Part shown: positions 13,601-64,000 of the stretch, piece by piece
How positions within the stretch are numbered: position 1 is the first letter of the stretch
Layout of the letters: each line of letters opens with the position of its first letter
Assembly: GCF_000003815.2 (NCBI RefSeq)
Contig: NC_049987.1
Coordinates: 21,999,218 to 22,063,217 of the forward strand
Source of the DNA: Branchiostoma floridae
Lineage: Eukaryota > Chordata > Leptocardii > Amphioxiformes > Branchiostomatidae
DNA: 64,000 bases
Reading direction: 5' to 3'
The notes under the pieces: generated by a model
What the model was told of the DNA's origin: nothing
The model's input: only the letters and a program-made list of their open reading frames with translations
The model's database searches: none
Translations under genes and position numbers: made by a program

Positions 13601-16600
13601 ATTAGCCTAGAATAAACATTTCAACACTTACAGCTTGGCTAGTAAAGTAAAATTACCTGAGTTTGTCAAATAATCCGTATGTACTTTTCCGATGTCTATT
13701 GCATTGACTCTATACTTTACGTTGAAAAGTTACGCATTCCTTTTCGTGAACTGCGTGAGTTTGTTGGTATAATAATATAAGATTTTCACACATCCAACGC
13801 AACACAATATCTACCCATCTTAGCGCGAAAATCACAAGTTTTCAGAGTTTTACTTACGTATCCTTGTATGTCGCACTCGTGAATTTGTTCCTATAATATT
13901 TGAAGATCTTCACACATACAATACAATATGTACTTTAATATCTAACTAAGCGCAGGAGGAATATCACAATAGAGTTACTCACGTATCCCTGTTCGTCGTT
14001 CTCGTTGTTGGTGAGCTTGAGTTTGTCGAACGAGACAGTCTGGCGCATCCAGGCCTCTCCGGAGGCCGGCGAATCGGGGTGCACGTACACCCTGGGCGGG
14101 GGAGGGGCGTCCGCGGAGCCGGCACACATCCACTTGGAGCTGTGGTAGACGTAGCGGTACCGCTTGTTGTCCACGGGCACGATATCCATGATGACGATGT
14201 ACTGAGCTTTGGGGTCCAGCCCGGTCACTTTGGTACGGATGGCAGGGAACATGCGTCTGGGGGAAAAGTACAAACAACGTATGGTCAGACAATATGTTTG
14301 GATTATGCTTCCCATACATGACTCAAACTTTCCTTCAGATGTGTTATAATAATAGAGGGCGAAACGTAAAGTCGTCACTTTGGTACGGATGGCAGGGAAC
14401 GTGCGTCTAGGAGAAAGATTACAAACAACGTACGGTCAGATAAATTTGACATTGCGCGATTTCCCTACATTAAAGGTGTTCTACAATGTAGATGGCGGAA
14501 AGCGACGTAAAATCGTCATTTTGGTACGGATATACGTCTGGGAAAGACACAGGGCATGGACTTGAAGAGCGGCCCTAACTTGAAGTCAGACTTTCAACCT
14601 TGATCGAGGAACTCTACTCTACAAACTACAGACTACAGTAGCATAGGCTAAGAATTTTGGTAACGTTATGCAATCCCTACATGGCTGAATTGAAGTTTCA
14701 ATGGTGGTGAACGACATATTTCGATTGCATTCGAAGTTTGTTTTGTGGGGCTTTTGTGGCCTTTTCCTGTGTTTCTACCCTCTGGACTGATGCATTTCCT
14801 TTTTTTCTGTTCCTACATCCTCTGACGTGCGTAGATTTCAGGTTTGAAAATCATAAAGACAAGGAAGCATACTTTTCAGCCGTAACGGTAAGTGTATTCA
14901 GGAACGTCTATCAAAAGTTCCTGCTTGAGAGTAAAACATCGACTTTGTAACGAAAATGTTTGGATAACCACAAAAAAAGCGGACGAAACAAATTTTCTGG
15001 ATCACACGCAGTAGCTAATAAAAAGGAGAAAGTTATATATACGGTGACTTTATTTATCTGTTGAAGTGTGCGAAATTAGATGACCGAGAATTATGTGACG
15101 ACGTGCAAGTACGGCCATCCGACATCCGATACTGTCAACAAGTGCGGCGTTGAATATCAGAAATATGACGAGACAAATTCAACAGCGAGTTTGGGCAACA
15201 TTTTCCGTCCTACCGTTTGCTAATATCGCCTTCAACGTTGTCAAAGTTTTGCTTGAAATGTTCTCCAAGAAATAGGGAATTATGGCAAAGATTTTTACAC
15301 AAATGTGAAGACAATGAATGCGCGAGGAATGTAGCGCTGAAACCTATCCTGTCTCATTCTCAATGTCAAATTTTACTGCGGGTCAAATCCATGCGACAAC
15401 GCCGCAGTCAGCTCGGCTTGGGTCAGCCGGCGGCATAGTTGGAACTAGATACGGCCGTCTGAGAGCTATATTTTATCATATCCGTGCGGAAAGGCGCGGA
15501 AAAAATCACACGAAACCTTGACATTGAAACGGAGACAATGGTGCCGATAATTTGTTCGTAAACTTGTAGACAAACAGAAGGGTTCCAGCGCACAAGTTGC
15601 ACTTTGCAGCACTTTGCAAAAACCCTCGTTTGACACTTTATAACGGTTAAAATGTACAAGCTGACTTTTTATGAGTAGTTTTTGAGCTTGTTTGGAGAAT
15701 ATCATTTTGTGGGCCTGAAATAACGCTGTAATAGATATTTAGTACGGTATAAAATGCAGGAACATCGTCAAACTCAAAGCAAGGCGGGGGCATAATATTT
15801 CCAGTCTCCTAACAACTGGCTGGGAGCAGAGGAAATACTAGGAGTTAGTGAGAAGAGGTTGTTAGAAAAGGCAGTGAGTCTTCTAAAACTTCTTCAAGGT
15901 ATCCTCAAACATTCTAAGACGTTTTGAGCTTTCTTACCTGCCAGCCTTGGTGATGATCATCTCAGTGCCGATGTCGTGAAACCGCGACCACAAGTCCTTC
16001 CCTTGCAGTTCCACACGCACCTGGTCCGGCCCGTCCGGCTGGGGCAGCGGGTAGGCCAGCCGGCTCTGCAGGGCCTGGATCGAGCCCAGCGCCGAGGAGC
16101 TCTGCTCGGGTGCACGGTCCTCCTGTCTACCGTCTGCGGGCGGCGAAAAGCCATGTTGGTCAACGAATTATGTTGTGTACATGAAACCACAAATCCAGGC
16201 AAACAAAACCAAATGAGGCAAAACTAGTTTTACGAAATTATGGAATGAAATGAAATATATATATCGACCCAGATATCTGACAGAAAAAATACTACTGGGC
16301 TAGTTGTCACGGTAGAGACACACGACATGTCAAGTTAGTATATACACGTACCCCTTCTCTTTTCAAGTACACATTATGAAAATGATAGTAGACAATGGCT
16401 GTATCTCAAAGTTTTGGAACATACTCTTGCGATCGTTGAACATGCAAAAAATAAACGAAATCGTTCAACAAATGATTATAACGGAAGATTATAGACCATA
16501 CTGGAACGGAGACGACTAAAGAAGAATCTTGTAGTATTATAAATATTTGCCAAGAAGAGTCAGTGAAGTAGAAAATTGCTTACCGGATGTGCTGAAGTTT

Positions 16601-16752
16601 TCCAGCACGGTGTCCTCCGAGGCATCCTCCCGGGAGCTGTGGAACTGTGCCGTCCGCTGTTTCTTCACTCGGGGCCCGAGCAACGCCTCGACAGAAAAGG
16701 CGTGAGCTCTCGAGCTCAGCGTAACGGGAGCGCTTTTCCTCTTCTCCGCCAT
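3954..16752 (-). CDS. Tbx15/18/22: T-box transcription factor, Tbx15/18/22 subfamily (7 exons)
   Basis: Coding exons in transcription order: 16752-16584, 16133-15938, 14256-13983, 9232-9065, 8577-8513, 5522-5425 and 4681-3954. They join in phase to 565 codons plus stop, a normal length for Tbx15/18. The start is the ATG at 16752 (context GGCATGG) because MAEKR matches the vertebrate Tbx18 N terminus; an upstream in-frame GTG is ignored. Residues about 16-26 ([11 protein letters not shown]) form the eh1-like motif that in Tbx15 and Tbx18 recruits Groucho co-repressors. A basic KKQR follows, a possible nuclear signal. The T-box spans about residues 97-293: [62 protein letters not shown] and [14 protein letters not shown]. 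In vertebrates the subfamily represses transcription in paraxial and limb mesoderm. Exon 3 is flanked by tandem acceptor copies (see findings). Confidence 0.95.
4034..4108 (-). repeat. In-frame 15-bp coding tandem repeat (five LPTSA units)
   Basis: Five near-identical 15-bp units (plus-strand core GGTCGGSAGGGCAGA). The unit length is a multiple of three, so copy-number change keeps the Tbx frame. Confidence 0.85.
5425..5522 (-). CDS. Tbx15/18/22: Tbx15/18/22 exon 6
   Basis: Residues 292-323. It carries the post-T-box block [12 protein letters not shown], which resembles the GLEALVESYAFW stretch of vertebrate Tbx15/18. The donor is G|GTACGT. Confidence 0.85.
5523..8512 (-). other. Tbx intron 5, no gene
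   Basis: About 3 kb. It holds a short palindrome with arms AGGAGGTTATA and TATAACCTCCT at about 6584-6605, a 20-bp direct duplication at about 6790-6829, and AAGAGCGGCCCAAACTGGA at about 6070, which recurs in intron 6 (about 5198) and, diverged, in intron 2 (about 14565). No other feature seen. Confidence 0.6.
8513..8577 (-). CDS. Tbx15/18/22: Tbx15/18/22 exon 5 (end of T-box)
   Basis: Residues 270-291, [20 protein letters not shown]. The acceptor is CTCCAG; the donor AG|GTGAGA splits an arginine codon. Confidence 0.93.
9065..9232 (-). CDS. Tbx15/18/22: Tbx15/18/22 exon 4
   Basis: Residues 214-269, [16 protein letters not shown] through [11 protein letters not shown], a signature T-box stretch. 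Exactly 56 codons, phase 0 at both ends. Confidence 0.93.
9312..9380. repeat. 34-bp tandem duplication in Tbx intron 3
   Basis: Two adjacent copies of a unit beginning TTTCACAATTTGTGAAGTTG. Each unit contains the small palindrome CACAATTTGTG. Confidence 0.75.
10310..10625. promoter_or_regulatory. GC-rich island in Tbx intron 3, candidate enhancer
   Basis: About 300 bp of markedly GC-richer DNA inside an AT-rich intron, without exon signals that fit the gene. It contains CCTAATGACG, the nuclear-receptor half site TGACCT and the octamer-like TTGCATATTA. Regulatory function is inference from base composition and motif content only. Confidence 0.3.
12189..12444. mobile_element. Left arm of a long inverted-repeat element
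   Basis: About 255 bp that match 13218-13474 in inverted orientation. The outer end is CTATTCGTCAAACTTCATCTG, shown here as 12189-12209. The pair encloses the assembly gap and forms a foldback-like element of about 1.29 kb as assembled. No transposase is visible inside. Confidence 0.75.
12963..13062. other. Assembly gap (100 N)
   Basis: Exactly 100 N, the usual placeholder for a gap of unknown size. Open frames that run across it are meaningless. Confidence 0.99.
13218..13474. mobile_element. Right arm of the long inverted-repeat element
   Basis: Inverted partner of 12189-12444. A frame of about 50 hydrophobic residues (core [15 protein letters not shown]) is open in both arms, but nothing is recognised in it. 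Confidence 0.75.
13983..14256 (-). CDS. Tbx15/18/22: Tbx15/18/22 exon 3 (T-box core)
   Basis: Residues 122-213: [29 protein letters not shown], and the dimer/DNA-contact region up to NNENDEQGY. The acceptor is CCCCCAG at 14257-14263. Two degenerate copies of its 5' edge lie in intron 2. Confidence 0.92.
14257..14545 (-). repeat. Tandem copies of the Tbx exon 3 acceptor edge
   Basis: Upstream (in transcription) of the real exon 3 acceptor lie two degenerate copies of about 35 bp of exon 3 with its acceptor. Copy 1 acceptor: CTCCTAG, exon-like from 14406. Copy 2 acceptor: TTCCCAG, exon-like from 14537. The intronic sequence between copies is repeated too (ACAAACAACGTAYGGTCAGA), so the unit is about 150 bp. 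Confidence 0.85.
14546..15937 (-). other. Rest of Tbx intron 2, no gene
   Basis: No coding or RNA signals seen. A repeat fragment, AAGAGCGGCCCTAACTTGAA, lies at about 14564-14583. Confidence 0.5.
15938..16133 (-). CDS. Tbx15/18/22: Tbx15/18/22 exon 2
   Basis: Residues 57-122. A linker leads into the T-box start, [19 protein letters not shown]. The acceptor CCGCAG and donor AG|GTAAGA both keep phase; the arginine codon is split 2+1 with exon 3. Confidence 0.9.
16584..16752 (-). CDS. Tbx15/18/22: Tbx15/18/22 exon 1
   Basis: Codes residues 1-56 plus one base, with the eh1 repressor motif (FSVEALL) and a basic cluster. The donor is GTAAGC after TCCG. Confidence 0.9.
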
Positions 16753-16852
16753 GCCACACAACTTCACAAGTCTTGTCTGTAACGGGGAACGGTCTGGCTG
16801 AACAGATGTCACTGGTTTGTGGAGTAGACAGACCCGCTCTAAATCACGACAC

Positions 16853-30395: not shown

Positions 30396-31290
30396 AGTAT
30401 TAAAACACTCCTTTTTCTTTCTCTCACAAAATCGAATCCCTGTGAACAGTTCCCCTTGTGCAGTGGTTACCAAGATGGTAATATTGGTAAGTTGTATAGG
30501 ATGCTATATCTTGAAGGAGAAATATGTTTTTAAACTTATGCTTTGTGAAAAAACTAGCAGACATAGAAATAGTGTGAGCTGGGAGGATGTAACTTAGAGA
30601 AGCACTGAACAAGTTCCACTCAGTCTTCGCTGGGTCTCCTCTCTTCCCCCGCCGGTTGCGAATCCGTTTGCTCAGAGCGAATGTGGTTCAGCGACGCCAG
30701 CATGCGCAACATAAACGACGCGGGGACCGTGATGGTGTCCCGCGTTTCCTCGAGCATGGCCTCGTTCCGGTGCATGATTTCGTGTGCCTCCTCGGGAAAG
30801 CTCGCCTCCTCCGCCATGGCCATCCACAGTTTCACATCGTAGTCGATCCCGCTCGTGGCGAGGACTGGGTACCTCGGGTGTGGCTGGACATGGACCAATT
30901 CAAAAGAAGACAAGTTGAACAGCATCTTAACTTAACGCTATCATGTACAATGTGCAGCAAAAGGGGAAATGTTTGCAGTGGTTTTGCTTTGCATGGCAGT
31001 TTCCACTACAAACTTTAAAAAACACCACAAACACTCCATTTTCTTCCTACCATAGAATCAAATTCCTGTGATTCATTTTTACCTTTTGCAGTGGTTACCA
31101 AGCTGGTGATATTGTTACAAGGAAGCTATATCTTGAAGGAGGAACATGTTGTAAACTTAATTTTGTAAAAAATTAGCAGAAACAGAATCAATCTGAGTAG
31201 GGTGGATGTAACTTGGAGAAGTACATTGTGTACCTTGTAGCAAGGTCAGGGTACCTTGGGTGTGGCTGGACACGGACCAATTGGAAAGAA
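30396..31290 (-). repeat. 640-bp tandem duplication around DCAF6 exon 13
   Basis: 30396-30616 (downstream of the stop) and 31025-31245 (in intron 12) are diverged copies, with anchors GCAGTGGTTACCAAG, GCTATATCTTGAAGGA and GATGTAACTTRGAGAAG. The upstream copy keeps only the first bases of an exon 13-like piece (about 31247-31275, GGTGTGGCTGGACA); the rest of that exon copy is gone. Confidence 0.8.
30620..30883 (-). CDS. DCAF6: DCAF6 exon 13 and stop
   Basis: [20 protein letters not shown], then [20 protein letters not shown], ending in an acidic tail EERRPSED. It matches the C terminus of the family. Confidence 0.95.
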   Translation of the reverse strand, partial: PHPRYPVLATSGIDYDVKLWMAMAEEASFPEEAHEIMHRNEAMLEETRDTITVPASFMLRMLASLNHIRSEQTDSQPAGEERRPSED

Positions 31291-34200
31291 TTATTATTAT
31301 CATTATTATTACTGGGTGGGCTGACTACTCTCTCTTCGCAGCCAGGGGCTGAATTGCGAGGAGCTTAAAATAGGTGGGGCTAAATTGTAAGGGTCTGGAG
31401 CGAGCTGCCATTCGGCACCACTCAGTTGACCTCAATACCTAAACATGTCACACAGGTGACAATAATTGTAGTGCAGTCGACAAAAACCCACATACACCTG
31501 ATACCTAGTATACATGGTTAGTCCAGGTAGGTACAAGTAGACATCAGAAATACAGGCTTATAAGACTCATTAGGACTTTAAACTGTATCTCTGTTACATA
31601 CGTTGTCTGACCCTTGCCTCTTCCCTCATTTTTTTTAAAGCTTTATTGAAAAATCATAATAATCACACACATTGTGAAATTTACATTTATAGCTTCATGA
31701 CTACATCTCCGACTACAGCAGATACATAACTATAAAGCTTTACAATTGGCTCTCTAATTGGCCTCTTCCCTCATGACCTCAATGAAAAGCGGCATGCAGG
31801 CCAATTTGAGCTTTTATGAATAAACAGTGGTTCAAACAAAACAAAACAAACAAATAAATACCTGCACACAGTTCACTACGTGCTTGTCCGCCTCGAAGAG
31901 CGTCACGAGCCTCCCGGTGTAACGATCCCAGATGAAGACGTGACCGCAGTCCGACCCACTGATGACGTATCTGAGGGATCATAGGGAAAATTAGACATCT
32001 TCTAGCTCAGAGAACATTTATAACTATATATATCAGCCTTATTTACCCATGTGGGACCGCGTGGCACGATTGGCAGCGCGTTGGTCTCAGGCCCAAGAGG
32101 TCCCGGGTTCGAATCCGCTTGCTGTGTCACCGATCTTGTGCCCTTGGGAAAGGCACTTTACACGACTTTCCTCACCTAACTCAGGTGTAAATGAGTACAT
32201 AGCTGCGGCTAGTGGCAGTGACAGGCCTTTGTTGTGGTGACAGGCCATAGGGGCATGTTCGGGCATGACGCACCCGCCATGACACATGAGTCAGGGGAAC
32301 CCCTTGCATCCTTGGTCGGAAGTCCTCCTAGGAGACGGAAACGCCAAACAACAAACCTGCATCTGCTGGGGCCGTCTTACACGTTGCATACAGTTGCCCC
32401 TGTAGGACTTAGTGCGCCAGTGAACGAGAGGGTGGAGAAGGACGTGCACACCCCTCCTTCACCTTAAAAACCCAAGTGCAGGCCAGGCAGACGGTTCGCC
32501 TTAAACCTGTCTGCCTACCATTGTCTTCCGAGACAGACGGATGCCAACAACAACATTTACCCATATCTCATTTATTGTTAGTAATATTGTTGGCGGAAAT
32601 GCCTACAAAACGTCTCTTGACTCCTTATTAATCTTACAAAAAAATTTCTTACGCATTGCCAATGGTTCCAATTTCCACGCCCATTCTTAACCACAAAATA
32701 AATAAACAAACAAACAAACAAACGTTTGGGGAAATGCCTATATGTCACGTCCTGATTCATAGTCCATTTGCATTTCTGGTTCATAGTTAGCCTCTTAACA
32801 AGTCTCATTTGCTTGCTTAATCATTTAAATTAAGGATTTATTGTTACCATGTTTCCTCGTTGTATTTCTTTATTTCATATTTTCTACATTTGTATATAGG
32901 TTAATGTTTAATTGGTGGAGGGCACTGTACAAGACAGCTAGGCTTCATCCCTCCTCCAGCACCTTTATTCAATTTTCTCACATTAGACTGAGGCCAGCAG
33001 AGGCTGTCATAAAAAAAATCATAAGGTATTCATGGACAAAACAAAGAAGTAATACATGTACTAGAAAAGTCTTGCAAGCAAATATATAATGTTTACCTTC
33101 ACATGTTCTAGTCTAATACTGACTACTGTTATGTTTATTACTGTTAATCTAGTGAACTGAGCCCCTCCAGCTATGTGCTGAGCCACTTTCCATACTTTAT
33201 TGGTTTTTTATGTGCAAAATACACAAACAAACAAACAAACGTACTGGGATCCGAAGAAGTTGGACTCCTTGATCATGGTCCTGGCGTTGCGGTGGCCCTT
33301 GTAGATCATCTTGTGCGGCGGGCATGGAAGCTGACTCAACTCTGTCTCTTCTTTCTCTCTCTGCTCGCGTCGCATCTTCATCAGCGCCTGGAGACGGGCG
33401 TACATCGGACGTCCCGATCTCTCCGCCTGTCAGGGAAAAATAAGTCAGTCATATATACGTATGGGGTGGTGCCTATTTCCATTTCTGTAGCCCTTTAGCC
33501 ACATAGTTGTATGGGGCTGGTCCACTAGAGAGGACAAAAAGGCTGTTATTCCCTTTCTTCTTCTCTCCAAGCAGAGGTTCAGCTCCATATTGCTTTCACG
33601 TGATTCTGGGCATTTTTGAAGAGATTTCTATTTTGTATCATTTTCTTCAAGTTACTGGCAAGACTTAATGAGAGCGGTACAAAAGAGAAAGCCCAACAAA
33701 AATGCCCCAAAACATATAAAAACAGCCAGAGCCAAACCTTTGCTTGGACAGTACCTTTCTTCACCTTTTTTTTCCACTTGTTTCATGTACTCATGCCAAC
33801 TTCCTCAATCATCCCTTCATTCATTATGAGGGCTGCAAGGATGCCATCTATAAAATCATGGCCCAAAGAAACGCATACCTAACTATAGACCCTAGTACTT
33901 ATATCTAAAATCTGTAATTTGATGGAAATGTTCTCACCATTGATGTGTCTTCTTCTTCATCATCATCGCTATCTCCTGACGGGACTGGCTCATCCGACTG
34001 AGGGGTGGGCGGGGTTGTCTCACTCGTCGGTGGGGAGGATTGTCTGCTGTCACTCCCTACTGTAGGTTTCTTGGGCCGTACCACATCGTCTTGAGAAACA
34101 ACGCTCAAGTCCTTTAAGTCACTGTCTGTTCCTTCTTCACTCCCTCCGACTGCACCAGGTTCTAAGGAACTCTCCTGTTGACCTTCAGTAGAATCGACCT

Positions 34201-37200
34201 TCAAACTAGGCGATTCTCCACTTTTCTCTTTGCTATCACCTTTAGAATCTTTTCTCAACATTTCTGTTTTCTTGGCACCGTCTTTAGGTTTTGAGTGATC
34301 ATCTACTGTCTTGGGCACAGCTCCAGTTCGAGTTTCAGTACTAGATTCTGTGGTTAATACACTAGTATCCACAACTTTGATCTCACAAACTGGACTTGTC
34401 TCTTGTGCAGTGTCCGCTCTTAAGACATTTGTTTCTGTGTCTTTTCTTTCCTTCCTTTCCTTGCTGTTTTTCTTAGTTGATGTCTCAGACTTGTTCCTAT
34501 CTACAGTTTTACTTTCAGTTTTCACTTTCTTTTCCTCCTCCTCAGCCTTGGCTGTAACTTCCTTCTTAGGACTTGCATCTTTAGTCTTATGCGACGGTTT
34601 CAGTTTGCAAGAATTCTTGCCAGAGTTGTTTTCCGTTGTTTCTGTGCTCTTTGTATCTTCGCGTTCTACATTTCCACCAATGGCACCTGATTTGGCTGCA
34701 GTACCTGTCCCTGCAACAGGGGGCTCTCCTGAACCAGTTTCTGAACCTGATGAAGGTGCAACTGCAGTACTTGTGTCTGCAGCAGGGGGCTCTCCTGCAG
34801 CAGTTTCTGCAGTGACAGTCTCTGCAGTTGGTGCGTCTCCTGCAGGAGTTTCTGTAGCACCTGATACAGCTGTAGCATCTGGTACACCTGTAGCACCTGA
34901 TACAGCTGTTGCACCTGTCACTTCAGCAGGTGTCTCTCCCTCAGGTGTCTGATTTGGCTGGCTGCCCTGCTCTGTGCTCTGCCGCCATGAAAAATAGAAG
35001 TCAAATATGCAAGAGTCATTTGTAAGAAACATGTTACACTGAAAATGTGTTTTGCAGTACAGAAAAGCTTAAGAAAAAATTCTAAAGGTAAGTTTTAAAG
35101 GTAAACAAAAATAGCTACAGCTTTTATTTTCTGTGGGATATTTCTCCATACTCTTTTCTTCAAGTATAGTAAACAGTAGGCCATGGCCTTTGGTCACAAC
35201 CGTTGCTTTATTTCTACCAACGTTTCAGTGACCGTCTGTCACTTTCATCAGAGGGCAACTCTGACTGGTTCAGATCGCTCTGTGGCTATAGGTAGAGATG
35301 GAGATTGGAGTCCCTACCTTGACATATGTAACTAACAGTTTTCATCTACACAAATTTGCAGTCTACACACAAACCTGTCTGTCTGCTGCTCCAGCCTCTG
35401 CTGTTCCCACCACCTCTGTTCTAGAAGGCGAGGGTGTTCCGGCGGTGTCTGGTCTGGAAGGTGAGGGCGTTCCGGCCGTGGTTTGAGAAGTGGAAGAGTC
35501 GGATGACGGGGAGGAGTCCGCCCCCTGGCCCTGGGGCGGCTGCATCGACTGTCGGAAGCTGGCCGGGTCCTCAAGCCATCGCTGCAGCATGTCAGTCATG
35601 CGTTGCATCAGGGAACGCTGTGGACTTTCGCTCTCGTCTGCCACTGAAGGAAACAAAAATATGAATATTCAGTGCTCAAAATAAAGGCAGGTTGCACCAT
35701 CAACAAGTTTAATCAAGGGTTCCTTACCCCATCTCAGCTAGAAGAAAGCCAACCCGTAACCCCAACAGTGCTGTAATACACCGTATGACTATGACTAACT
35801 GACTGCTTACTCCCTGCCTCAAAATCATCATATCATGAAGTACTTTGACTATGGCCTGGTGTTGACCAGTCTCCTTTCAAGAAACAAACAAACCAAAAAG
35901 GGGAAAAAACGCCAGTAGCATATACATCAAATACATCAAATCCTTGTTACAGGGGCTCAGCAGTATGGGAAGAAGAAGAACACATGACTCACCAGCTGCT
36001 GACGTAGCCCTGGTGTCACGTTCGCTCTCCGGCCGTGACTGCGGACCAGTGTCTGACCAGTCTCCGCGTAACCGCAGCCTCTTCACTGGAGGGTCTTTGG
36101 ACGACTTATCCGGACATTTCTGTTGGTGCACAGATAAAAAACATTGTCACAAAAGGCTAATCTGTGTAACACAAACTCTGCTGTCCAGGCCTGTAACTTA
36201 CCCCTCTGTCAGATGTTGGGCGGGTTGCTATAAGCGAGATTTAATCAGACTAACAAAAGGCTACACCAATTCATTTCCTTGGGTGTTGGTACATAACTGT
36301 CTTACCTGTACCTGTAATGGGAGGGGTATCAAGAAGCTAGAGAGGTAATGATACATTATAAAACCCCAACCTACACTGTAGCCATTGCTGGTGCTGTGAG
36401 AGTCCTCATACTTGACACCCCCCTTTCCATCAGAAGTCAGGTGTTGCGGACTGAACAGGTAGATGTAGTGGGAGGAGTACCATAAGCTATAGAGAGTTAA
36501 TTGTGTATAAAACTCAGACTTACACTGTATCCATTGCTGGTGCTGTGAGAGTCCTCATACTTGAAGCCCCCATGTCCATCAGGAGTCAGGTGTTGGGGGC
36601 TGAACACCTGGATGTCTAACCTTCATTGACATATAGAGAGGTAACTGTATAAAGCCCAACCTACACTGTAGCCATTGCTGGTGCTGTGAGGGTCCTCATC
36701 CTTGACAGTCCCTAACACCTGACTCCAGACAGACACGGGGGGTGTCTGTCTGGAGTCAGGTGTTAGGGACTGAACACCTGGATGTCTAACCTTCATTGAC
36801 ATAGAGGTAGCTGTATAAAGCCCAACCTACACTGTAACCATTGCTGGTGCTGTGAGAGTCCTCATACTTGACGCCCCCATGTCCGTCAGGAGTCAGGTGT
36901 TGGGGACTGAACAGGTAGATGTAGTGGGAGGAGTACCATAAGCTATAGAGAGTGTATAAAACTCAGACTTACACTGTAACCATTGCTGGTGCTGTGAGAG
37001 TCCTCATACTTGACGCCTCCATGTCCGTCAGGAGTCAGGTGTTGGGGACTGAACAGGTAGATGTAGTCGGAGGAGTACCATTAAGAGAGATAACTATATG
37101 TATATATATAAGACCCCAACTTACACTGTAGCCATTGCTGGTGCTGTGAGAGTCCTCATACTTGACGCCTCCATGTCCGTCAGGAGTCAGGTGTTGGGGG

Positions 37201-40200
37201 CTGAACAGGTAGATGTAGTCCGAGGAGTAACATTTTCCCCGTCTATCTTTACATTAGATTGGTAACTGTTTGGGGCTGTCTCCAGTTTTGAATTTTTTCT
37301 GCTCCATTCATTTATTTGGGAGCCCATCTTTATACGTTTTGTTTGACAATTCTGTCTCTCTGAGATTTCAATTTTTTCATGGATGACGTGAAACTCCTGC
37401 CGTCCTATAAGTGAATTTTAGTTACAGGATAGAAGAAAAGGTGCTGGAGACAGCCCTAGCAAATGTTAAGAAACCCCAACTTACACTGTAACCATTGCTG
37501 GTGCTGTGAGAGTCCTCATACTTGACACCCCCATGTCCGTCAGGAGTCAGGTGTTGGGGGCTGAACAGGTAGATGTAGTCAGAGGAGTAGCTGACTAGTA
37601 AGTCCTGGCCGTCACTGCTGTACTTCAGGGACGTCACGCGGCACGATTTGTTGCTCAGCGGCGGCGGGCAGAAACGACAGAACACGCCGAGTGTACCCTT
37701 CCCACATACACCACCTACAGAAAGCATATGTATCAATCCAAAAGGCTCATATTCTGTACACTATAGCTCAAAATAAGCTCACTTCAGCATAACACACCAC
37801 CTAGCCTTGCTAGTATGTACCATATACACAGGCCAAGCGCTCAAGATACCCACTTGTAACCTGAACGGTTCAGAAAAAATTGCTGGTAAAATGAATGCAA
37901 GTTGCAAATTTGCAGCTAAATAACATACCGGGTAAGAATCTGCATCTACTGCTATCTGTCAACTTACTAAAACTAGAATCACTGTCGGCTTGTGAAAGTT
38001 TGTGATTGACCATTCTTGATGTATTTCAATGTAGTGTGTAATAAGAACGTCATACTATTTGACAGTTTATGCTATTCTGCAGCAAAACTAATAGATAAGG
38101 GAGTTAAATACAGAAACCAAGCCTTACCACTCCCTTTAGTTCCCAGCATTCTGCGATCAAACAGTCGTACAGAGCTGTCGGAACAGCCGACCGCGAGGTG
38201 GTATGGCGTGTGGGGGTTGGCAGCAATGGCTGTTACAGCACGGTGGGCTTTTATCAGAATATCCTACATAGAGAGACAAGAAAATAGATAACATTCATTA
38301 GAGTCACTAAAGGCAAAAAAAAAAAAGTTCAAGTAGTAGAATAATAACAGGTATTGTATACTAGTATCATGTTTACATAAAATATATGTGACTGTGAAAA
38401 ACAAAGTAGAGATGCACAATCATCTGATCAAGCATGTGTTCTTCATGAATAATCAATTCAATTGTCGTTTAAGAATTGTAGAGTAAAATTCAGACCAAGC
38501 AGACAGAATTTTCACTATACATCCTCTATGTCTTGTACATACATCTTTTCAGCCAAATTCACGCTTGCGTATCTAAGCATATAGGAAAATAGGTCCATGA
38601 AACAATGAAGAAAATTCAACAGTGAAACTTACATCTTTGCAGTTGTCTTTTGTACAGGTGGTCTTGAGACGGATGTCGAACCACCGAACTGTCCCATCCT
38701 CCCCGCAGGATAGAAACGTGTTGGGGTCGCTGTCCAGTGTGAGCAGCTAGAGAGTGAGGGGGGAGCAATAACAAACATGGTTACACAGGCTCCATTACAG
38801 AGTTAGGTCCACAGAAACAGTTTTGGGGTGCACAAGATACAACCAGGAGTTTCAAAACCCAAGACCACGTGGTAGGCCTCCTAAGCAATTTGGAAGGACC
38901 AGATCACAAAAGACACATATCCTGACACAAATATCTAGGTGTGCTAGTGCACCCAGTCACCAATAAGATGCACAGCTCCAATTTTGAGTGCACAAAAGTG
39001 CATTTTTTAAGAGCTCTAGCACACCGCTATAAAGCATGAAGTATTTTATACCATGCACTCATGTGCCAAAATATAGAGGGATCCTTGCTTATTTCTACAT
39101 AAATGATAATAAAGATAAGCTATTTCTAACCTCAGAAGCGGTGCCATAGTGACAATTGAAGACATTGGAGCCCCAGGCCAGGTGTAACAAAAACTCTGCT
39201 GTCCAGGGCTGTAACTGGCCCCTCCCAATAAAGTTAAGCTTCTAGGAGGTTAGGCTGACTGCTATAAGCGAGATTTAATCAGGCTACAAACCTCATAAGC
39301 GGTGCCATAGTGACAGTTGAAGACGTTGGAGCCCCAGGTATTTTCCCTCTCTACATCTGTGTAGTACAGGATTCCGTCCCCAGAACACGACACCACGCGC
39401 CCGAGCCCAGAGTGCGGCATGAACTTGGCGCTGAAAATGTTCGCCCGATGGCCCGATCTGATGGAGGTAACAATCTGAAACCCAAGATAAAAGTTAAATT
39501 GAGCGATACATCCAACTTCAGTTGATTTGTTTCATAAATTTACCTTCGCCAAGAAGGTTATATTTTCAATAGCATCTGTGGGTGTGTTTGCAGAAGACGA
39601 CCATAACTCGAGAACGCCTGAATGGATTGTATTGATATTTGGTATGTGAGTAGGTCTTGATGAGACCTGGAAATGATTAGATTTTGGGCCCCCTAGCAGC
39701 CTGTTACATTACACGACACCACACGCCTGAGCCCCGAGTGCGGCATGAACTTGGCGCTGAAGATGTTTGCCCAGTGGCCAGACCTGATGGAGGTTACAAT
39801 CTGGAACCCAAGAGAAAAGTTACGCGTATGTTTATTTGAAATTTTGTCGTTAGTACATCCAATTTCAGTTGATTTGTTTCATATATTTTTTGTTGTATAC
39901 ATGGATAAAAAGGTATGAGGTGTGGCAGCAGCTGGTTACACAGGTATTATGCTGAACAACCTGTCATGCCTAACCTTCGCACCCCTGACTGCAAAAGTTG
40001 TAATAATCATTCCTTTTTTCTCATTCTTGCATCAGATTTGGTTTCTCTAGGGGATGCCTAGAGAATAGAGAAACTTTACTTAATCAGACTTTACTTTATC
40101 AGACTTTACCTGCTGCACCTCAAAATAGAGGATGAATAATGATGATGATGATGATGAGGGGATGCCTGCAGCCATAAAATTAAATTAAACATTACAGGTT

Positions 40201-46280: not shown

Positions 46281-46281
46281 A

Positions 46282-55284: not shown

Positions 55285-55482
55285 TTATTTCTTCCCCTTT
55301 TTGCCAGCGCTCTTCCCTTTCTCGCTCTTGCCCTTCGGAGACGGTGATTTCTCCATCTCTGCCATCTTGGCGGCTTCTGCGGCTTCTTCTGCCTCCCGCT
55401 TTCTCCTCTCGACTTCCAGGAACTTCTGTCGGTAGGCTTCCCGCGGGGTGTTGATGGCGTTACGGGCTCGGTCCAGGGCGGC
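55285..55482 (-). CDS. ADGB: Androglobin last exon and stop
   Basis: AALDRARNAINTPREAYRQK, a helical Glu/Ala/Arg run, then SPSPKGKSEKGKSAGKKGKK and TAA at 55287-55285. Confidence 0.86.
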   Translation of the reverse strand, partial: AALDRARNAINTPREAYRQKFLEVERRKREAEEAAEAAKMAEMEKSPSPKGKSEKGKSAGKKGKK

Positions 55483-58400
55483 CTGAGAAAAATACGAGAA
55501 GCACAGATGTTACAGAAACACCTGTCAGCTACATATAGTCTTGCATAGTCCAGTGGGTCGTGGACTTAGAAGTTGTAAGTTTGAATCCTGTGTCGACTGT
55601 GTTTCTCAACCAACATGGACTATAGAAACTACTTGAAGTCTTTGCAGTCCTTGTGATAGAATGCCGTAATTCACTGTTTCCTTGTACTCATTGAAAAGAC
55701 TAGAGGAATTTTCCTGGTATAAGTAACCTGTAAGACCTGTTCTGAATCACTAGGTTTGTTTTAGCAAAACTGATTCAAAATTACTTTCACTTTGTTTATA
55801 AATGAAAGACGAGGACAAGTTTTATCATTGGGGACAATAAGCTGATCACCCATTAATATCTACATTTTTAAATTGCAGCCCTGCCCCCTGATTGGCTAAG
55901 GAATAGACCAATCACCTGCATCTCCTCGCACTCCTGCAGCTGCCTCTCCTTGAGCCGGTTCCTCTCCAGCCTGTCCGCCTCCCGGCGCTCCAGCACGTCC
56001 TCGCGGAACGCCCGGAACCTCCGGATCTCCTCCATCCGCTCCTGCTGCCTCCGGACCATCTCCTCCTCATCTATCAGCTTGGGAGGTCCGGTCGCTTTTC
56101 TGTGGAAGGAACATTGCAAATGGTACATCAGTTAGTAAACAGAGTCTTTATGTGAGCAAATTCAACTGATATCAGCTTGGGAGGTCCTGTCGCTTTTCTG
56201 TGAGAGAAGCATTACCTTGTGTACATAATCTTTGTCAGTCGCAAAGTTTATATAATGGGACAGGGCTATCTCCAAGTTTAAATTTTTTCCATCTACGTTC
56301 ATTGTTTGGGAGCCCATGTTATCAATTTCCTTTGTTAATTCTATTATTTTAAACCCAGAAAAATATATTTTTTATTGAATTTATGTCATGAAGCTCAATT
56401 CTTTCGATACCCATGGGTAGGTCACAGTGTCTATTTGTTATCGGGTTCATTTTAAGCCAGACTTGAATTCAACCCGGTGCCCAGCCAGGCCCAAAAATAT
56501 CCCGGGAGTCGCAAGGTGTCCCACGGGCCCACGTAGGGGTCACGCCCCAAAGGGCCCATTTTTCCAATTGGGACCTAAGCCTAACTGATTCAACAGGCAA
56601 AGTGCACACGAGAAAATTTTTGAATCTTTAACAAAAACACAAAGGGCAAACAAAGACTTACTTAATGAACGGAGTCCTATCCACTGGTTGGATGGCATCC
56701 TTTGGCGTTGGGGGCCTGGGTGGCTCGACAGAGAAAACCTCGCTGACAACCGGCTGATCAATCTCTGAAGGAACTGGGGTTGTACGGGACTGGGCTGTAA
56801 CTGCACAAAATACACAGGACAGTTTGGTAAAAACATGTATGTTAATCATAGATTAGGTATCAACAAATGTGTGGAAAGGGAATCAAAGATAATAAGTGGA
56901 GGGTCTTCAGTACCAAGGACAGGTATTGGTCAATGAACATAAATGCACTCCAGTATAAACACCACCAAGCAGCTTTGGCAGGCATAGCAAAGCAGTCAGT
57001 TGAGGGTTGAAGGGGCTACTCGGATGTTCTCAAGATGGAATGGAGGAGTTATTGAATGAATGAATGAACGAATGAATACATGAATAAATGAATGAATGAA
57101 ACTTACCTTCACTTGCAGCATCCGTGGTGATGACGCTCCCCGCTGCCTCCTCCTCTGCCACATTCTCCTTATCCGTGGCTCCGCCCGTTTTCCTTCGCTT
57201 GTTGAGGAACTGTAGCCGGGACTGCATGGCTTTCACTGCACGGCCGGGCTCGGCGGCTTCCCAGGCCTGCTTCATGGCTTTGATCTCCTCCTGGCGTTCT
57301 GTGTCCTTCTTTACTTCCAGCTCCTCCTGTGGAACACAGGAAGGAATTTTTGGTTAGTACTTGGGGTGGTTACCGGTACAAAACCGCTATCTATTTTCTT
57401 CTGTGGACTGGTTCAGAAAAAAAAAACGACCTGAAAAAAATCAGTAGATCGGATTTTGGACCGATAAGAAAATGAACCAGCATACTTTGACGTGTTTTGG
57501 GGCTCACTGGCCCACAAGTAACAAGAGTGATGTAGAGGAGAGTTGTTTTGAGGCTATGGTTTTATATTGTATTGCAAACAGGTAATTGTTTTGTACTTAC
57601 AGCAGCCGTGCCGTCACTCACGAGCCTCAGCATCCAGTATGGCTTGTTGGTGTCAAATTGCTGCAGGTGCACAAAAAACATACATAAACAACACGAAGTA
57701 CTTAAGAAAGAGCTACAATACACTAATAAAATAATGTAAAAACCATTATTTAAAATGCTGAATATGATATAACTAGATACATGGTACAATTTTCACATTC
57801 CTCTATGTAATTGTACTCTGTGCAAAACAACACAAAATGATACAAAACCATTCCAGTTTAAGTTGAGTAAGAAAAGTTGATCCATTTGCAGCAAGAAAAA
57901 CAATAAGGAAAAAAATTGTTAGCTGCTTGAAGTAAGGAACTAAAACTAAAGGAAGTTAAAACCATGCTGTATTAAGGAGATCTAATTTTCATGTTACCTA
58001 CCAACACAGATGAGACTTTATGTTAAGGCAATGTTACTTCACTCACACTCACTCATCCTCTTGCACATGGTGCGTAGAGCCGACTGCGTGCAATGTTACT
58101 TCAATAAATAGTATATTGATGACATTTGTGCATGCTTCAATTTTTGCAGTTGCCAAAAAACATTTTTCTACCACAATATAAATTGTAGAAAGCAGCTGAG
58201 AAATGAGCAAAAATGTTGTAGATTTCAAAAAAGATATCGGAAAACTTATGTTATAGAATGCCAAAGTCAGTCCCAAAGTCAAAGAAGAAGGTGTGAAAGA
58301 AGAAAAATGAAGAATCTGAATGACTTGTTTGGTGCAACATTTAGATTTCACAATGAATGCAACTTTTTATTGCCAAAGATTTTTTTTTATTCCCACACTC

Positions 58401-61400
58401 ATACAAACATTTTTAGTTACCAGGGACATTATTCACATTATCAACTCAACATTGCCTAATATTAGTAATAAGGAACTACATGTACTGAGCTATTACCACT
58501 ATGACACTCACCACAGACGGAGGTCTCGATGCTGCCTTCTCGCCCTTGTCTCCCTTCCCCTTGTCCTTGTCCTTCCCCTTCTTCCCTCCAGCCTTGGTTG
58601 CCACCGACTTCTCACTCCGAGGAGGAGACACGGACCTGTCCTTCCCTGGGATAGCGTCTAAGAAACAATCGAGAGTCTTATAAGAAAAACAGTAACTTAA
58701 AGATGTTTGCCATGTTTTCCCATGCTTGGAGGACTTGCATGCAAATAAGCGTTGTATACAGCCATGCATGCCGACCTATTAGAGAGAAAAAGCTGCATCA
58801 GTGATAATGTGTTGAAATAAAATCTTAATTAAGATGTTTGAGAAATGAAACAGATAAGATGGACTTCCTCAAAACATGACACCATTTCACCCTCAACTTT
58901 TTTCGACCTGCTTTAAAACAGGGCTTTAATATGACATTCTGATGGGTAAAATAATATGTAGTGTGCATATGTGCAAATTCCATATGTGCAAAAAGTCCAG
59001 TGGTTGTTGACTATGCCTCTGAACAGGCTGTGTCACTCACCCAACATGCACGCTACCGGAAAGGGTTGTAGTCCTTAGAAGGGAATGTTAAACCATGGTT
59101 CACTGTTATTTGTACTTGTTGAAAAGTGCTAGGGGAATTTTCATGGTACAATGAACCTTTATAAATACTGAATATACCGTCTGTTTTCTCTGTCATAACC
59201 AGTGAAGAGTAGCTCTTCAGTGACATTGATTAGTTCAAGAACCCCGTCTTCTATATTTCACGTAAAGGGATTGCACAGGACAAAACAAGCGAAGTCCATT
59301 CTAAGAGTTTCATTCCTCTTGTATACATCAGTGATGAAAATATATGTTATTGCTTCATGCATTCCATTTGTTGAAGTGCCGATATACACAGCATGCTCAG
59401 ATGATGTGGGGGTTAGAGTGATGTTTTGTGTTAGGCCACACTAGCTTCATCTCATGGATAACATCCCCCTGTATATGCAGTCAATTTGACAAAAAGGAAA
59501 AAGGTGGGCTTGAATGGTAGGCAGCACCTTTCCGCAGTGATGATTTATTACAATTTTGGAACCTCTAACATTTGCCCAAAAGTTGAGTAAAAACGTGAAA
59601 TGTCGTATTGCATGTCTTAATTACAAAGTGAATATGGCAATAGGGGTTATAGTAAAATGCTTCAGAATCTAAAAACGATTGTTTTTGGTTTTCATGTTTT
59701 GCCTTTGTGGTACCACATGTGTCTCGTTGTAATCTGCCATGCCATTCTTGCTAGAAAAATATTACAAAGGAGAGTAAGTTGTTCCAAAATTTTTTGAGTG
59801 TCCATGGGATGTTATCCATCAATGCAAGTTTCTGTGACCTAACTGACGACCTCTATTGGTGGTGCTTGGCGCCCTTTGACCTTTGACCATCTTACCTCTG
59901 CTGGAGGCAGACCTACATGATGACCTGACCTCTGACCTGACCGCTGACTCCAAGTCTGCCGGCTCTGCGGGTTTAGGGTGTAGTTCAAAGTTGAAAGTTC
60001 AAGTGTGACACATGACAACAGGGTTCTTCAGTGGTTACAAACTACAGAAACTAACCAGTCAGAAACAGGAGGTTTTTTTACAGTACAGGGGAACATGCTA
60101 ATACTTCATCCCAGTAAATAAATGTACAATCAGAGGTATTACAAATGTTAATGTACAAGGTAATTGTAGCTATAACTATTAAGGTGCAAGTTATCTTGGG
60201 TAAGGCAGAGTGTTGATGGTGTTCAGCACCAAGGACAGGTGTGTTTACGTTTGTGTGGATGGTGTTCAGTATCCAGGAAAAGTATATGGTGACTGAATGG
60301 TGTTCATTACGAAGGATGTTAGCCTATGTGGAAATGGCAATAAGCACCAGGGACAGGCATATGTACCTAATATGTGTATAGTGTATGGTACGGCACTAAG
60401 GACAAGTGTGTTTGCTTGTGTGTGGATGGCATTCAGCATCAAGGATATGTATGCTTAACTGTGTGTGGATGTTGTTCGGCATCAGTGACCAATGTGTTTG
60501 TGTGTAGATCGTGTGCCTATATGTACATGTATGCATGGATGGTGTTCAGCACCAAGGACAGGGGTAAGACATGACATACTCTTGAGTTCTGTTTTCTCCA
60601 GTTCCTTGAGCTGGTTGACGAAGGCCCACTGACTGGTGGAGAGAGGCCAGCTCTTCCTCAGGACTATGGCCTGCAGAATGTACTTGTGCGGCTGAAAAGA
60701 AAAAAAGAAAACATATACTTTCAAATGTTGCATGTTTATAGCAGACAAAACCCTTTAACTCACTCTGTTGCAACTGGGTGTTACGCTAGTTCACCTTTAT
60801 CTATGGAGTAACCTATTCTGTACTTTTTAAAAACTGCAATATTTTTAAAACATTGTAGTTTGACACTTCCAACAACTTGATATCCCTAAATAATGTTTTG
60901 AATACAATGGATAATAGGTTGCCCCACGGATAAAGAGGAAATTGGATTACAATTGAGTTTTCTATATCTGTGAAAGAGCATGTTGTCCTGCCCTAGCATA
61001 TAATATACTGTGACAGAGACATTTGTAATGATATGGTAGAGTTGATATCTACTAACAAGCTTTATTAACACAAATACAAATTTCACTGTTGTGAGTCTGG
61101 AAATGTAAAAATGCTTCTATTGACCATACCTTTCTGTTTACTTCCGTATCATCTTCACTCCTCACTGGAGACGCATGTCGGCTGCCACGCTGAGGGGAAG
61201 AAACATGGAGGTTGTCATTATCAAGGTCAGTGGGTCTTCGAAGGTCAAATCTGCAAACTTGAATACTAAGAAAATTTTTTCAGGGAATCACAAGCAAACA
61301 TGGGTTTCTCCATAATTGCACAATTCGCACATATACAATTCTAATATGAAAAATAAGACTACAAGAGTGTAGAATAGACAATGTCCTGATTACAGACAAT

Positions 61401-64000
61401 TCAATTTCTACAACTGGGTAGTTTGGTAATTGTCCATATCCAGTTGCTCGAAAAACTGCTTTTTGCCATAGTTGGGTAATATTGTTGAACTGGATGTCTA
61501 ACCTACATCAACATGTTTCTCTGGTATGGCTTTAAAGGTGAAAAGATAATATGGTGACCTGACTTACCGAAGAGCGGCTCCCGGCTGAGCTGGTGCGTTT
61601 CTTCTTGTCCGCTGCCACACTCTCCTTACTGGTGGCCTTCTTCATGGGTCCGGATGGGGCCGCTGCTGTTTGGGCTGAAGGGTGGGAGGGAAACAGCCAA
61701 ATCAATAGGATGAGGACTTGTTCATATGGAATGTAGGTAGTCCCTTAGCCTTTTGTGAGGCTGTAGGGGCAGTAGGTTGTTATCCACTGTGTCTAGGGCA
61801 TAGTATTGGAAAGGGGAGCCCTTCCCGCTCCTTCCACCACCTTTTACCTCCCAACCAGTCAGGTACCCATGTGCGTATGTGGGTATAAACAATCATAAGA
61901 GAGGCCTACATCAAGTAATGCCATTGGTATTCTAGCAGGCTCATTTTTTTTATCAAATGAGTTGAAATATGGCACAAACAAAGGTAAAGTCATATATCCT
62001 CTTGAGATTGAAATATCTCAATTTGTTGTTCAGGTTTTTATGAGTGACTGAGTTGAGTTCAAGATGACAACATGGGAATGCATCCAAATAGTTACATACA
62101 TTGCCTACTGCTCGGCCTGTCCTCGGGCTGCCAGTCCTTCTGGAACACGAAGGCGGGGATGACGGCGTGACCTTTGCCCTGGGTTGACACGACCTCCTCC
62201 TCATGGTCCAGCACCTGCAGCTGGATGTACACGTCAGGTTTGGAGGTCGACAGCTGCAAGGTCACCAGGTGATCAGCCGTCACTTTCACTGCATACCTGT
62301 TGGGAAGCAAAACATTGATGAGGCTTCATCTGAATCTTCTACTTAGAAGACTTAATAAAGAACTTGTGCTGGAGGCAACCATGGTCTAGGATGGGACTAG
62401 GTGAGGTGAGGTGAATAAAGAATGTTACACTAAAACCTTATTCTTCAATTTGAATATAGTCTTTGACTCTAGGAAATTAGCTCCTTGTTTGGCATGGCGT
62501 GTAGACAATTTACCTGAACATTATAGAGTCCTTATTAGGAAATTAGCTCCTTATTTGGCATTACTCACCTGAACATGACTACTGACCTAGTCCTTATTAG
62601 GTAAGTAGGTCCTTATTTGGTATGGAATCAGGTTTCACACCTGACTATGACACTGTCCTTATTAGGAAAGTAGCTCCTTATTTAACATACACCTGAACAT
62701 GATACAGTCCTTATTAGGACAGTAGCTTCTTATATGGCATTACTCACCTGAACATGATACAGTCCTTATTAGGCATGTAGTAATCTCTCAGCTCCTTAAC
62801 TGCGAAGTTTGTCGTCAGGGTCTCCTTCAGTGGAGCGGGCAGTGGACTGGACGAGCCAATCAGGCGCATCCGCCACTTGTTGCCAGGCAACGGTAGGTCT
62901 CCCGCCCGTGCCTCTGCCACAAAGGTATAGCCAGTCTGGAAAAGTCGCAAAAATTACTAACTACTGGTGATTTAATACCAGGAAAGTCACTTTCAAACTT
63001 AGAAGTTGTGGATTTTGAAAATTTCTTTTGTAAGATCTTGGACCCACTGAAACTTTGAGATGATAACTGTCCAGTTCTTCAGAACATCATGTCCTTTTTT
63101 TCCCCAGAAAATAGTTGGGCACTAGCACATGAAAAAATATATGAAACAAAATACTGCTGTTGAGATTTCAAATACAAACATCGGTATTTAACCTTACAAT
63201 TGCTGCCTAACACTGTAACCAATAGGGAACCTGTAACCAAACGGCTACTTGGGCACTAAGGGATAAGGAACATGTAAATGAGGGGATTTAATTTTGGAGA
63301 GGGAAAATGGAGTGTTCATGGTTGTTTTTAGTTTACAGTTAAAACTGGGGGAACAGGCAGGCAGAAGACAGAACAAGCAGTTACGTTCTGCAGTGAAGAT
63401 GACTGCAGAACCCAACATTTACAGTAGGCAGAAGTTGTTACCTTGTTTTTCTTGTAGACGTGTGGTGCGACCCGCTGGAAGACTCTCGGTACATCCTCGC
63501 GAGTGTCGTTATTCACCACCCTCAGCATACAGGTGGTCACTGGGGTGTACAACTTGGGCACCACCAACGATTCCTCATCCACATAGAAAACATCTCTGTA
63601 GGAAGAGGAAAAGATAAGATGTTGGGTTTTAAAACTTAGTAACAGGAACATCATAGCTTTCTTAAGCATAATTCTATGCATATCCCAAACCCAATGCCTT
63701 GCTCTGAATTTCAACCTGTTTTTGTATCATTCTGTATCTTTATATTCAATATAACCGACATTCAGCGTAACACAACAGCTTCACAGGCAAGTGGCTTGGC
63801 AGCAGCTGGTTATATAACACTGAAAGGCCTGTCAAATCTAACAAATCCTGTTGCTCACATACTCCTAGCCCTGGGTACCTAAAGCCCAACATAAAGAACT
63901 GCAAAGGTTCGTCACCACTCTCTCTCACCCCCCCTCATCACCAAAGAGATGGTTTATAAAATGTGTTGCTTGCCATATCAAAAGCAGGTAACCCACCTGA
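55285..64000 (-). CDS. ADGB: Androglobin, C-terminal part (14 exons visible, 5' end outside the window)
   Basis: Exons in order: 64000-63997 (edge), 63595-63442, 62935-62748, 62296-62100, 61674-61568, 61189-61130, 60691-60580, 59964-59896, 58657-58512, 57660-57601, 57326-57107, 56800-56662, 56099-55916 and 55482-55285. The phases close to about 611 codons plus stop. Androglobin is a large chimeric globin (calpain-like domain, permuted globin, IQ motif) linked to cilia and sperm in vertebrates; those N-terminal domains lie beyond 64000. Diagnostic blocks from memory of the family: KWRMRLIGSSSPLPAPLKET, VKELRDYYMPN, STSKPDVYIQLQVLDHEEE, GHAVIPAFVFQKDW, HKYILQAIVLRKSWPL, SQWAFVNQLKELEKTEL, DTNKPYWMLRLVS and KQAWEAAEPGRAVKAMQSRL. 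The tail is a charged coiled coil ending GKKGKK. Family call strong, but not confirmed by search. Confidence 0.85.
55916..56099 (-). CDS. ADGB: Androglobin exon (coiled coil)
   Basis: KATGPPKLIDEEEMVRRQQE, RFRAFREDVLERREADRLER, RLKERQLQECEEMQ, a heptad-like charged helix. The donor is GTGATT. Confidence 0.85.
56160..56215 (-). repeat. Partial copy of an androglobin exon 5' edge with acceptor
   Basis: Exon-like from 56197 after CTCACAG, encoding KATGPPKLI, then diverging. It lies 98 bp upstream (in transcription) of the true acceptor at 56099. Confidence 0.82.
56662..56800 (-). CDS. ADGB: Androglobin exon
   Basis: TAQSRTTPVPSEIDQPVVSE, EPPRPPTPKDAIQPVDRTPF. The acceptor is TGCAG, the donor AA|GTAAGT. 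Confidence 0.82.
57048..57100. repeat. (GAAT)n microsatellite beside an androglobin donor
   Basis: About 50 bp of imperfect TGAA/GAAT repeats starting 7 bp inside intron. Confidence 0.9.
57107..57326 (-). CDS. ADGB: Androglobin exon
   Basis: EELEVKKDTERQEEIKAMKQ, AWEAAEPGRAVKAMQSRLQF, then a charged tail. The donor is G|GTAAGT, directly followed by a (GAAT)n repeat. Confidence 0.88.
57601..57660 (-). CDS. ADGB: Androglobin exon
   Basis: 20 codons, QFDTNKPYWMLRLVSDGTAA, phase 0, donor GTAAGT. Confidence 0.87.
58512..58657 (-). CDS. ADGB: Androglobin exon (Lys-rich)
   Basis: DAIPGKDRSVSPPRSEKS, then a Lys/Gly-rich GKKGKDKDKGKGDKGEK and ASRPPSV. The donor is GTGAGT. Confidence 0.82.
59896..59964 (-). 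CDS. ADGB: Androglobin small exon
   Basis: PADLESAVRSEVRSSCRSAS. It is too short for a long open frame, but the acceptor CCGCAG, donor G|GTAAGA and both split codons fit the neighbours exactly. A GGTCA-rich sequence. Confidence 0.7.
60580..60691 (-). CDS. ADGB: Androglobin exon
   Basis: PHKYILQAIVLRKSWPLSTS and QWAFVNQLKELEKTELK, a highly characteristic block. The donor is A|GTATGT. Confidence 0.88.
60781..60945. mobile_element. Palindromic MITE, GTTCACCTTTAT family (copy 3)
   Basis: CGCTAGTTCACCTTTATC at the left; GGTTGCCCCACGGATAAAG, the diverged inverse, at the right. It lies in an androglobin intron. Confidence 0.72.
61130..61189 (-). CDS. ADGB: Androglobin exon
   Basis: 20 codons, RGSRHASPVRSEDDTEVNRK. 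Phase 0, donor GTATGG. Confidence 0.78.
61568..61674 (-). CDS. ADGB: Androglobin exon
   Basis: Low-complexity linker, QTAAAPSGPMKKATSKES, then KKKRTSSAGSRSS. The acceptor is CTTCAG, the donor TCG|GTAAGT. Confidence 0.78.
61935..62030. mobile_element. Fragment of the mariner-type MITE
   Basis: AGTTGAAATATGGCACAAA, ATATATCCTCTTGAGATTGA and AATATCTCAATTTGTT match the inside of 18439-18600. The termini are lost. Confidence 0.65.
62100..62296 (-). CDS. ADGB: Androglobin exon
   Basis: YAVKVTADHLVTLQLSTSKP, DVYIQLQVLDHEEEVVST, GHAVIPAFVFQKDWQPE. The donor T|GTATGT is chosen by phase. Confidence 0.87.
62510..62747 (-). repeat. Four tandem copies of an androglobin exon 3' edge with donor
   Basis: Exon-like edges end at about 62693, 62640, 62569 and 62514. 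Each has CCTAATAAGGAC, a variant of TGTATCATGTTCAG, and a donor (GTGTAT, GTGTGA, GTGAGT, GTAAAT), then the intron word TAAGGAGCTA. The period is 53-71 bp. Confidence 0.88.
62748..62935 (-). CDS. ADGB: Androglobin exon
   Basis: TGYTFVAEARAGDLP, KWRMRLIGSSSPLP, VKELRDYYMPNKDCIMF. The donor AG|GTGAGT is followed by four degenerate copies of itself. Confidence 0.88.
63442..63595 (-). CDS. ADGB: Androglobin exon
   Basis: 51 codons: DVFYVDEESLVVPKLYTPVT, then VFQRVAPHVYKKNK. The acceptor is CTACAG, the donor AAG|GTAACA. Confidence 0.85.
63997..64000 (-). CDS. ADGB: Androglobin exon edge at the window end
   Basis: TCAG|GTGGGT gives a donor at 63996. Its two-base overhang fits the next exon (AG + A = Arg). 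The remainder is outside. Confidence 0.5.

Follow-up and report, generated by a model that had tools for sequence, protein, structure and literature searches.

Duplicated exon edges in three genes of Branchiostoma floridae as likely by-products of local direct duplication

Pieces of exon, together with their splice sites, recur inside neighboring introns of three multi-exon genes of Branchiostoma floridae, and the question is how such copies arise and whether they have any role in splicing. All three genes are encoded by the minus strand of a 64,000-nucleotide stretch of DNA (NC_049987.1, positions 21,999,218 to 22,063,217; hereafter the window, whose own numbering is used throughout), the plus strand of which carries a Frizzled open frame.

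3957..16776, minus strand, T-box gene with seven mapped exons (Pfam T-box, E 8.3e-79, and exon-edge mapping)
30640..40305, minus strand, DCAF6-like WD40 gene with exons 3-13 mapped (Pfam WD40 and exon-edge mapping)
55290..63595, minus strand, C-terminal exons of an androglobin gene (Pfam Androglobin_IV, E 2e-40; Androglobin_V, E 2e-31)

We take the T-box gene to be Tbx15/18/22-like, and the WD40 gene is presumably DCAF6, judging from its similarity; among the best 60 of 164 matches in a PDB search, the closest solved relative of the latter is DCAF8 (E 8e-28). Fifty-six splice edges were placed in the three genes from open frames, splice consensus, and Pfam matches. Copies of these edges were sought by scanning for direct repeats at offsets of 20-2000 bp that include 8 bp or more on each side of the junction (score at least 25) and by BLAST of each edge, with 100 bp per side, against the window (E ≤0.01). 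An Rfam scan of the window gave no match at gathering scores.

The scan found local, same-orientation copies of the junction at 7 of the 56 edges, with 2, 1, 1, 6, 1, 4, and 1 extra copies, or 16 in total, and edge BLAST added an older copy at an eighth edge, the T-box exon 3 donor, making 17 window copies. Lowering the score cut to at least 20 brings in the D11 donor (33240), a simple TTTG repeat that was excluded from the count. Every copy at the seven edges lies on the intron side in the orientation of the real edge, and no inverted BLAST match crosses a junction at any of the 56 edges (E ≤0.01, within the window). Identity to the real edge ranges from 96% to 67%, and chance similarity is ruled out by E-values down to 2e-49. 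These results bear out a first-pass annotation of the sequence, which had claimed that exon edges with their splice sites are copied into introns of all three genes: the same seven edges are recovered, with the copy numbers it gave (two at the T-box exon 3 acceptor; one each at the DCAF6-like exon 4 acceptor and donor; six at the exon 7 donor; one at the exon 13 acceptor; four at the androglobin donor and one at the androglobin acceptor), and with donor copies downstream and acceptor copies upstream. Its description of the copies as tandem applies to the arrays at three edges, namely the exon 7 donor with seven units, the androglobin donor with five, and the T-box acceptor with three; the others are single copies, often spaced, rather than head-to-tail.

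The features of the T-box gene are as follows.

14224..14292, minus strand, real exon 3 acceptor edge, junction 14257/14256 (edge mapping, scan, BLAST)
14374..14443, minus strand, exon 3 acceptor copy 1, junction 14406, 90% identity (BLAST)
14513..14560, minus strand, exon 3 acceptor copy 2, junction 14537, older and shorter, extent approximate (pattern search)
13760..13880, minus strand, old exon 3 donor copy, copy junction 13857, GT kept (BLAST)
4034..4109, minus strand, exon-internal tandem repeat, unit 15 bp
9306..9379, unstranded, purely intronic tandem repeat, unit 32 bp, a comparison event

The old donor copy matches the real donor edge (junction 13982) at 67% with gaps (E 5e-6), and edge BLAST also located a 31-bp intronic repeat near exon 6. 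If the acceptor copy at 14406 were used, it would add 150 nt (50 codons) in an open frame (14256-14406), and might in this way give rise to a new exon extension; its acceptor score is weak, at 2.8, where real acceptors have a median of 10.0. The one 100-N gap in the window (12963-13062) is flanked on both sides by an inverted repeat of ~270 bp (12189-12456 and 13209-13474, 87% alike), perhaps a mobile element or a hairpin that broke the assembly.

The DCAF6-like gene carries copies at four edges and three repeats within exons.

39385..39541, minus strand, real exon 4 acceptor edge, junction 39474 (scan, BLAST)
39711..39888, minus strand, exon 4 acceptor copy, upstream, junction 39800 (BLAST)
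39289..39338, minus strand, real exon 4 donor edge, junction 39291 (scan, BLAST)
39128..39177, minus strand, exon 4 donor copy, downstream, junction 39130, 94% identity, ~3 shared intronic bases (BLAST)
37471..37589, minus strand, real exon 7 donor edge, junction 37484 (edge mapping, scan)
36357..37233, minus strand, six-copy array of the exon 7 donor edge, junctions 37124, 36972, 36830, 36664, 36523, and 36374
30852..30908, minus strand, real acceptor edge of exon 13, the last exon, junction 30883 (scan, BLAST)
31029..31290, minus strand, collapsed last-exon copy, consisting of the acceptor edge (31234-31290) and a copy of 3' sequence (31029-31221, corresponding to 30403-30602)
34696..34809, minus strand, exon-internal repeat, offset 66 bp
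34852..34917, minus strand, exon-internal tandem repeat, unit 18 bp
35415..35480, minus strand, exon-internal tandem repeat, unit 33 bp

The exon 7 donor is a true array of seven units of ~150 bp with the junction CAGT/GTARGT. The earlier statement that each copy joins a piece of exon to the adjacent intron is generally correct, except that the exon 4 donor copy, with its 3 intronic bases, spans the boundary only barely. The exon 13 acceptor edge is indeed copied, but as part of a larger duplicate of the last exon that has since collapsed and is without the ~250 bp holding most of the coding part. The ~110 bp spacer between the exon 4 donor copies (39182-39290, the first ~110 bases of intron 4, beside the GT) resembles a stretch of intron 7 (36164-36257), and may be a dispersed element or a copied piece of intron.

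Donor and acceptor copies in the androglobin gene, with one comparison event, complete the set.

62720..62780, minus strand, real donor edge, junction 62747 (62747/62748; scan, BLAST)
62512..62719, minus strand, four donor copies, junctions 62692, 62640, 62568, and 62513
56072..56115, minus strand, real acceptor edge, junction 56099 (scan, BLAST)
56170..56213, minus strand, acceptor copy, upstream, junction 56197, 89% identity, 54-bp spacer (BLAST)
60215..60562, unstranded, purely intronic local direct repeats, a comparison event

The five donor units are spaced 52-72 bp apart, and the 54-bp spacer at the acceptor copy lies outside the repeat unit.

Minisatellite-like duplications of exon/intron boundaries are known from amphioxus under the name of mirages (PMC3087553, which cites a first description from 2002), and the window copies are new examples of this phenomenon. 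Both comprise tandem or near-tandem copies that span the boundary on donor and acceptor sides. The published cases include acceptor arrays in Gb6, with 150-160 bp units that are 81-100% alike and number 6 in one haplotype and 3 in another, a donor copy in Gb9, and mirages in Adh3 (PMC3087553); troponin C is also among the published genes, and variation in unit number is reported for other mirage genes of amphioxus. The Gb6 units often keep AG/GT, as the window copies do (PMC3087553). Where the window, taken from one assembly, differs is in its genes, which are new, and in some copies being spaced or collapsed (exon 13 and the exon 4 donor). A search of open-licence literature found neither mirages in these three genes nor a genome-wide mirage survey. 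The lancelet PGBD5 gene has repeats of 60 bp and 108 bp at exons 3 and 4, for which reads were re-examined, and these resemble the window copies in being imperfect, in including splice sites, and in belonging to the same lineage; there, a repeat block is annotated as an extra exon, whereas in the window only the T-box copy at 14406, with its weak acceptor, could extend an exon in frame (PMC3902484).

A cephalochordate genome is the setting in which mirages are known, and the genome sampled here has two neighboring Brachyury genes. On the window's own contig, two T-box genes lie 16 kb apart in opposite orientation and share an identical 88-residue exon peptide that matches Brachyury/T at E 1e-57, versus 4e-26 for the next T-box (PDB search). 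Among deuterostomes, only cephalochordates are stated to have paired Brachyury genes, which lie side by side (PMC5363035). Two T-box loci, L007 on the large contig C2 and L008 on the large contig C4, share one exon peptide with each other, and may represent a recent duplicate or a haplotype copy.

Local direct duplication is common in this genome. In an independent sample of 25 regions of 10 kb picked by coordinate (237.9 kb; one locus, the window itself, was left out), local direct repeats make up 10.6% of the sequence, short-period repeats included. Collapsed source units amount to 4.1% of the window and 3.1% of the sample, so the window is not unusual. It holds 22 clusters of local direct repeats, which are common away from exon edges too. 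Boundary copies occur in three further predicted genes of the sample: one donor copy in L012; two copied donors and an acceptor array with six extra copies in L014; and an acceptor with four extra copies in L031 (predicted exons in each case). In L014 (5372-5990 and 5061-5195) several of the acceptor-edge copies are linked by telomere-like GGGTTAGGGTTAGG (TTAGGG) filler, and a donor copy of that same exon is set apart by similar telomere-like repeats, a hint of break repair with telomeric filler. TTTG repeats lie directly at a splice site, at the start or end of the intron, at 33240 and 40305 in the window and at 6432 in L014. Among 30 scanned window exons, all four arrays of exon-internal repeats have units divisible by 3 (all 9 offsets), for which the chance with four arrays is 1 in 81; of nine offsets at edges or in introns (150, 326, 161, 360, 382, 98, 55, 32, and 167), two are so divisible. 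Repeats that are exclusively in-frame within exons fit duplication as a general process on which selection then acts as a filter.

The duplicated edges are mirages, and we consider it likely that a high rate of local duplication produces them as a tolerated side effect. The genome makes short direct duplications of tens to hundreds of bp, tandem or spaced, in most of the regions sampled, and within exons selection would retain those that are in-frame. A duplication across an edge should be nearly harmless, in that one junction stays joined to the whole exon and the remainder becomes intronic. Arrays would then grow and shrink through unequal exchange, and edge-spanning copies may stay recognizable for longer, the exon half of one copy being frozen by selection. 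The mutational step may be, for example, fill-in repair of staggered breaks, or slippage. In mouse and human cells, where the mechanism was studied, the filling in of overhangs at breaks is an established source of small tandem duplications, which share their size class and their direct, adjacent copies with the window (PMC8355091). The copies themselves would be neutral under such a process. The local duplication process put forward in the first-pass annotation is therefore supported by the copies, by the widespread direct repeats, by the in-frame exon repeats, and by the other genes. Its further suggestion, in which no other layout is tolerated by selection, is unnecessary: direct duplication over a donor yields exon/intron-exon'/intron', so the copy must lie downstream, and over an acceptor the mirror arrangement places it upstream. 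The layout as a product of selection was rejected on these grounds, since geometry alone yields it.

Could the copies instead be products of assembly, or the duplication be aimed at exon edges? An older draft genome contained an aberrant assembly of one published mirage (PMC3087553), PGBD5 unit numbers differ between assemblies (PMC3902484), and the window itself contains the 100-N gap described above. An assembly artefact or merging of haplotypes is nevertheless highly improbable, given the wide range of identity between copies and real edges, similar structures in three unrelated sampled regions, and published loci that were verified by RT-PCR or by re-examined reads. Haplotype merging in particular was rejected on account of arrays of up to seven ordered units of ~150 bp, with their own spacers and single-copy flanks, which merged haplotypes would not be expected to produce. 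Targeting of duplication to exon edges, for example by splicing-associated breaks or R-loops or by some feature of the junction sequence, draws on tests within the window that are post hoc, the window having been chosen for the pattern. The edge rate of 7/56 (12.5%) is about four times the 3.1% background (P 0.0018; against twice the background, P 0.059). A hand-made list of local duplications in the gene spans has 9 non-exonic events, 7 of which cross an edge where about 1.0 is expected (P 3e-6), and allowing for a detection advantage of 2-fold, 5-fold, or 10-fold gives P 1.7e-4, 0.012, and 0.11; with offsets taken as unit length and 11 events, P is 8.6e-4, or 0.016 at 2-fold. The hand-made list omits the TTTG repeat at the D11 donor (33240), a TGAA repeat at 57053, and the exon-internal repeats, as well as the older T-box donor copy and the 31-bp intronic repeat near T-box exon 6, both of which are counted in an automatic BLAST list. 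At E ≤1e-5 the automatic list holds 7 edge-crossing events, 1 mixed event (the exon 4 donor, which narrowly misses the criterion), and 1 intronic event; at E ≤1e-3 it holds 7 edge-crossing, 1 mixed, 3 intronic, and 1 exonic, and misses the tandem repeat at 9306. Because the automatic list agrees, the edge excess in the window is independent of the hand-made one. A coverage test (7/56 versus 8.1% of intronic positions, P 0.16-0.21), the null of which is inflated by the counting of array copies, was dropped as uninformative, and the event and source-unit tests were used instead. Against targeting, 18 of 158 predicted edges in the sample are copied, but 13 of these fall in L014, a gene with repeated exons, and outside it the rate is 5/132, about background, with two of the five belonging to L017 and one to L023, in which the exon as such is repetitive; this is a weak test, the edge predictor at the sample threshold having 48 of its 84 predicted window edges match mapped ones. 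Seven other T-box loci (~3.3 kb) have none of 33 predicted edges copied, also a weak test with flanks of at most 1.5 kb, in which distant copies would be hidden (the 33 edges represent 17 exons with one uncertain edge omitted; the edge-rate test used 26, with the same zero result). The conserved exon half would also give edge-spanning copies an approximately two-fold advantage in detection. The window therefore hints at an edge preference beyond plain local duplication, the independent sample is without a clear excess and fits a modest edge preference as well as none, and targeting seems unlikely.

A separate matter is whether selection maintains the copies as functional decoys or as spare splice sites, the other proposal of the first-pass annotation. 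In favor of this, none of 58 splice dinucleotide sites is changed in 29 copies at 13 edges, compared with 13/103 at intron positions 3-6 and 18/232 at exon positions 3-10, and, by a matrix trained on these edges, 12 of the 17 window copies exceed the 95th percentile of the full set of GT or AG dinucleotides across the gene spans. The retention has P 0.009 with all sites treated as independent at the exon rate, but array copies are not independent, and with one copy per edge (26 sites, 7.8%) P is 0.12. The retention alignments must moreover reach 2 bases beyond the junction, which favors copies retaining the donor GT, and the androglobin A2 copies and the second T3 copy came from patterns requiring GT or AG. 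The retention is suggestive of constraint, and plain neutral decay predicts it less well; it depends too much on shared ancestry inside arrays to carry a claim. Three of the six exon 7 copies carry weakened donors (GTAGGT), splicing at 16 of the 17 window copies would introduce stop codons in each of the three frames, and published mirages are reported to leave splicing undisturbed, with Adh3 data and globin RT-PCR suggesting regular splicing (PMC3087553). Maintenance as decoys or spare sites is thus very unlikely, and the earlier proposal of a functional decoy set is not upheld. Selection could also act on the copy junctions themselves, if units are exchanged so frequently that any of them may become terminal and units without GT/AG are purged, with the others forming a reservoir or decoys; this, too, we regard as rather unlikely. 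Were the copy junctions truly conserved, they would make selection on spare splice sites a testable proposition.

With local duplication as the preferred explanation, the observations suggest that in lancelets a high rate of local duplication generates mirages widely, as a by-product, and that they are not oddities of a few genes. In the Rogers model of intron gain, as described for potato RdRp (PMC4974935), a duplicated segment likewise carries splice signals, and the outcome is a new intron, whereas the window copies stay within existing introns. Mirages constitute a standing source of duplicated splice sites, a proposed raw material for new introns.
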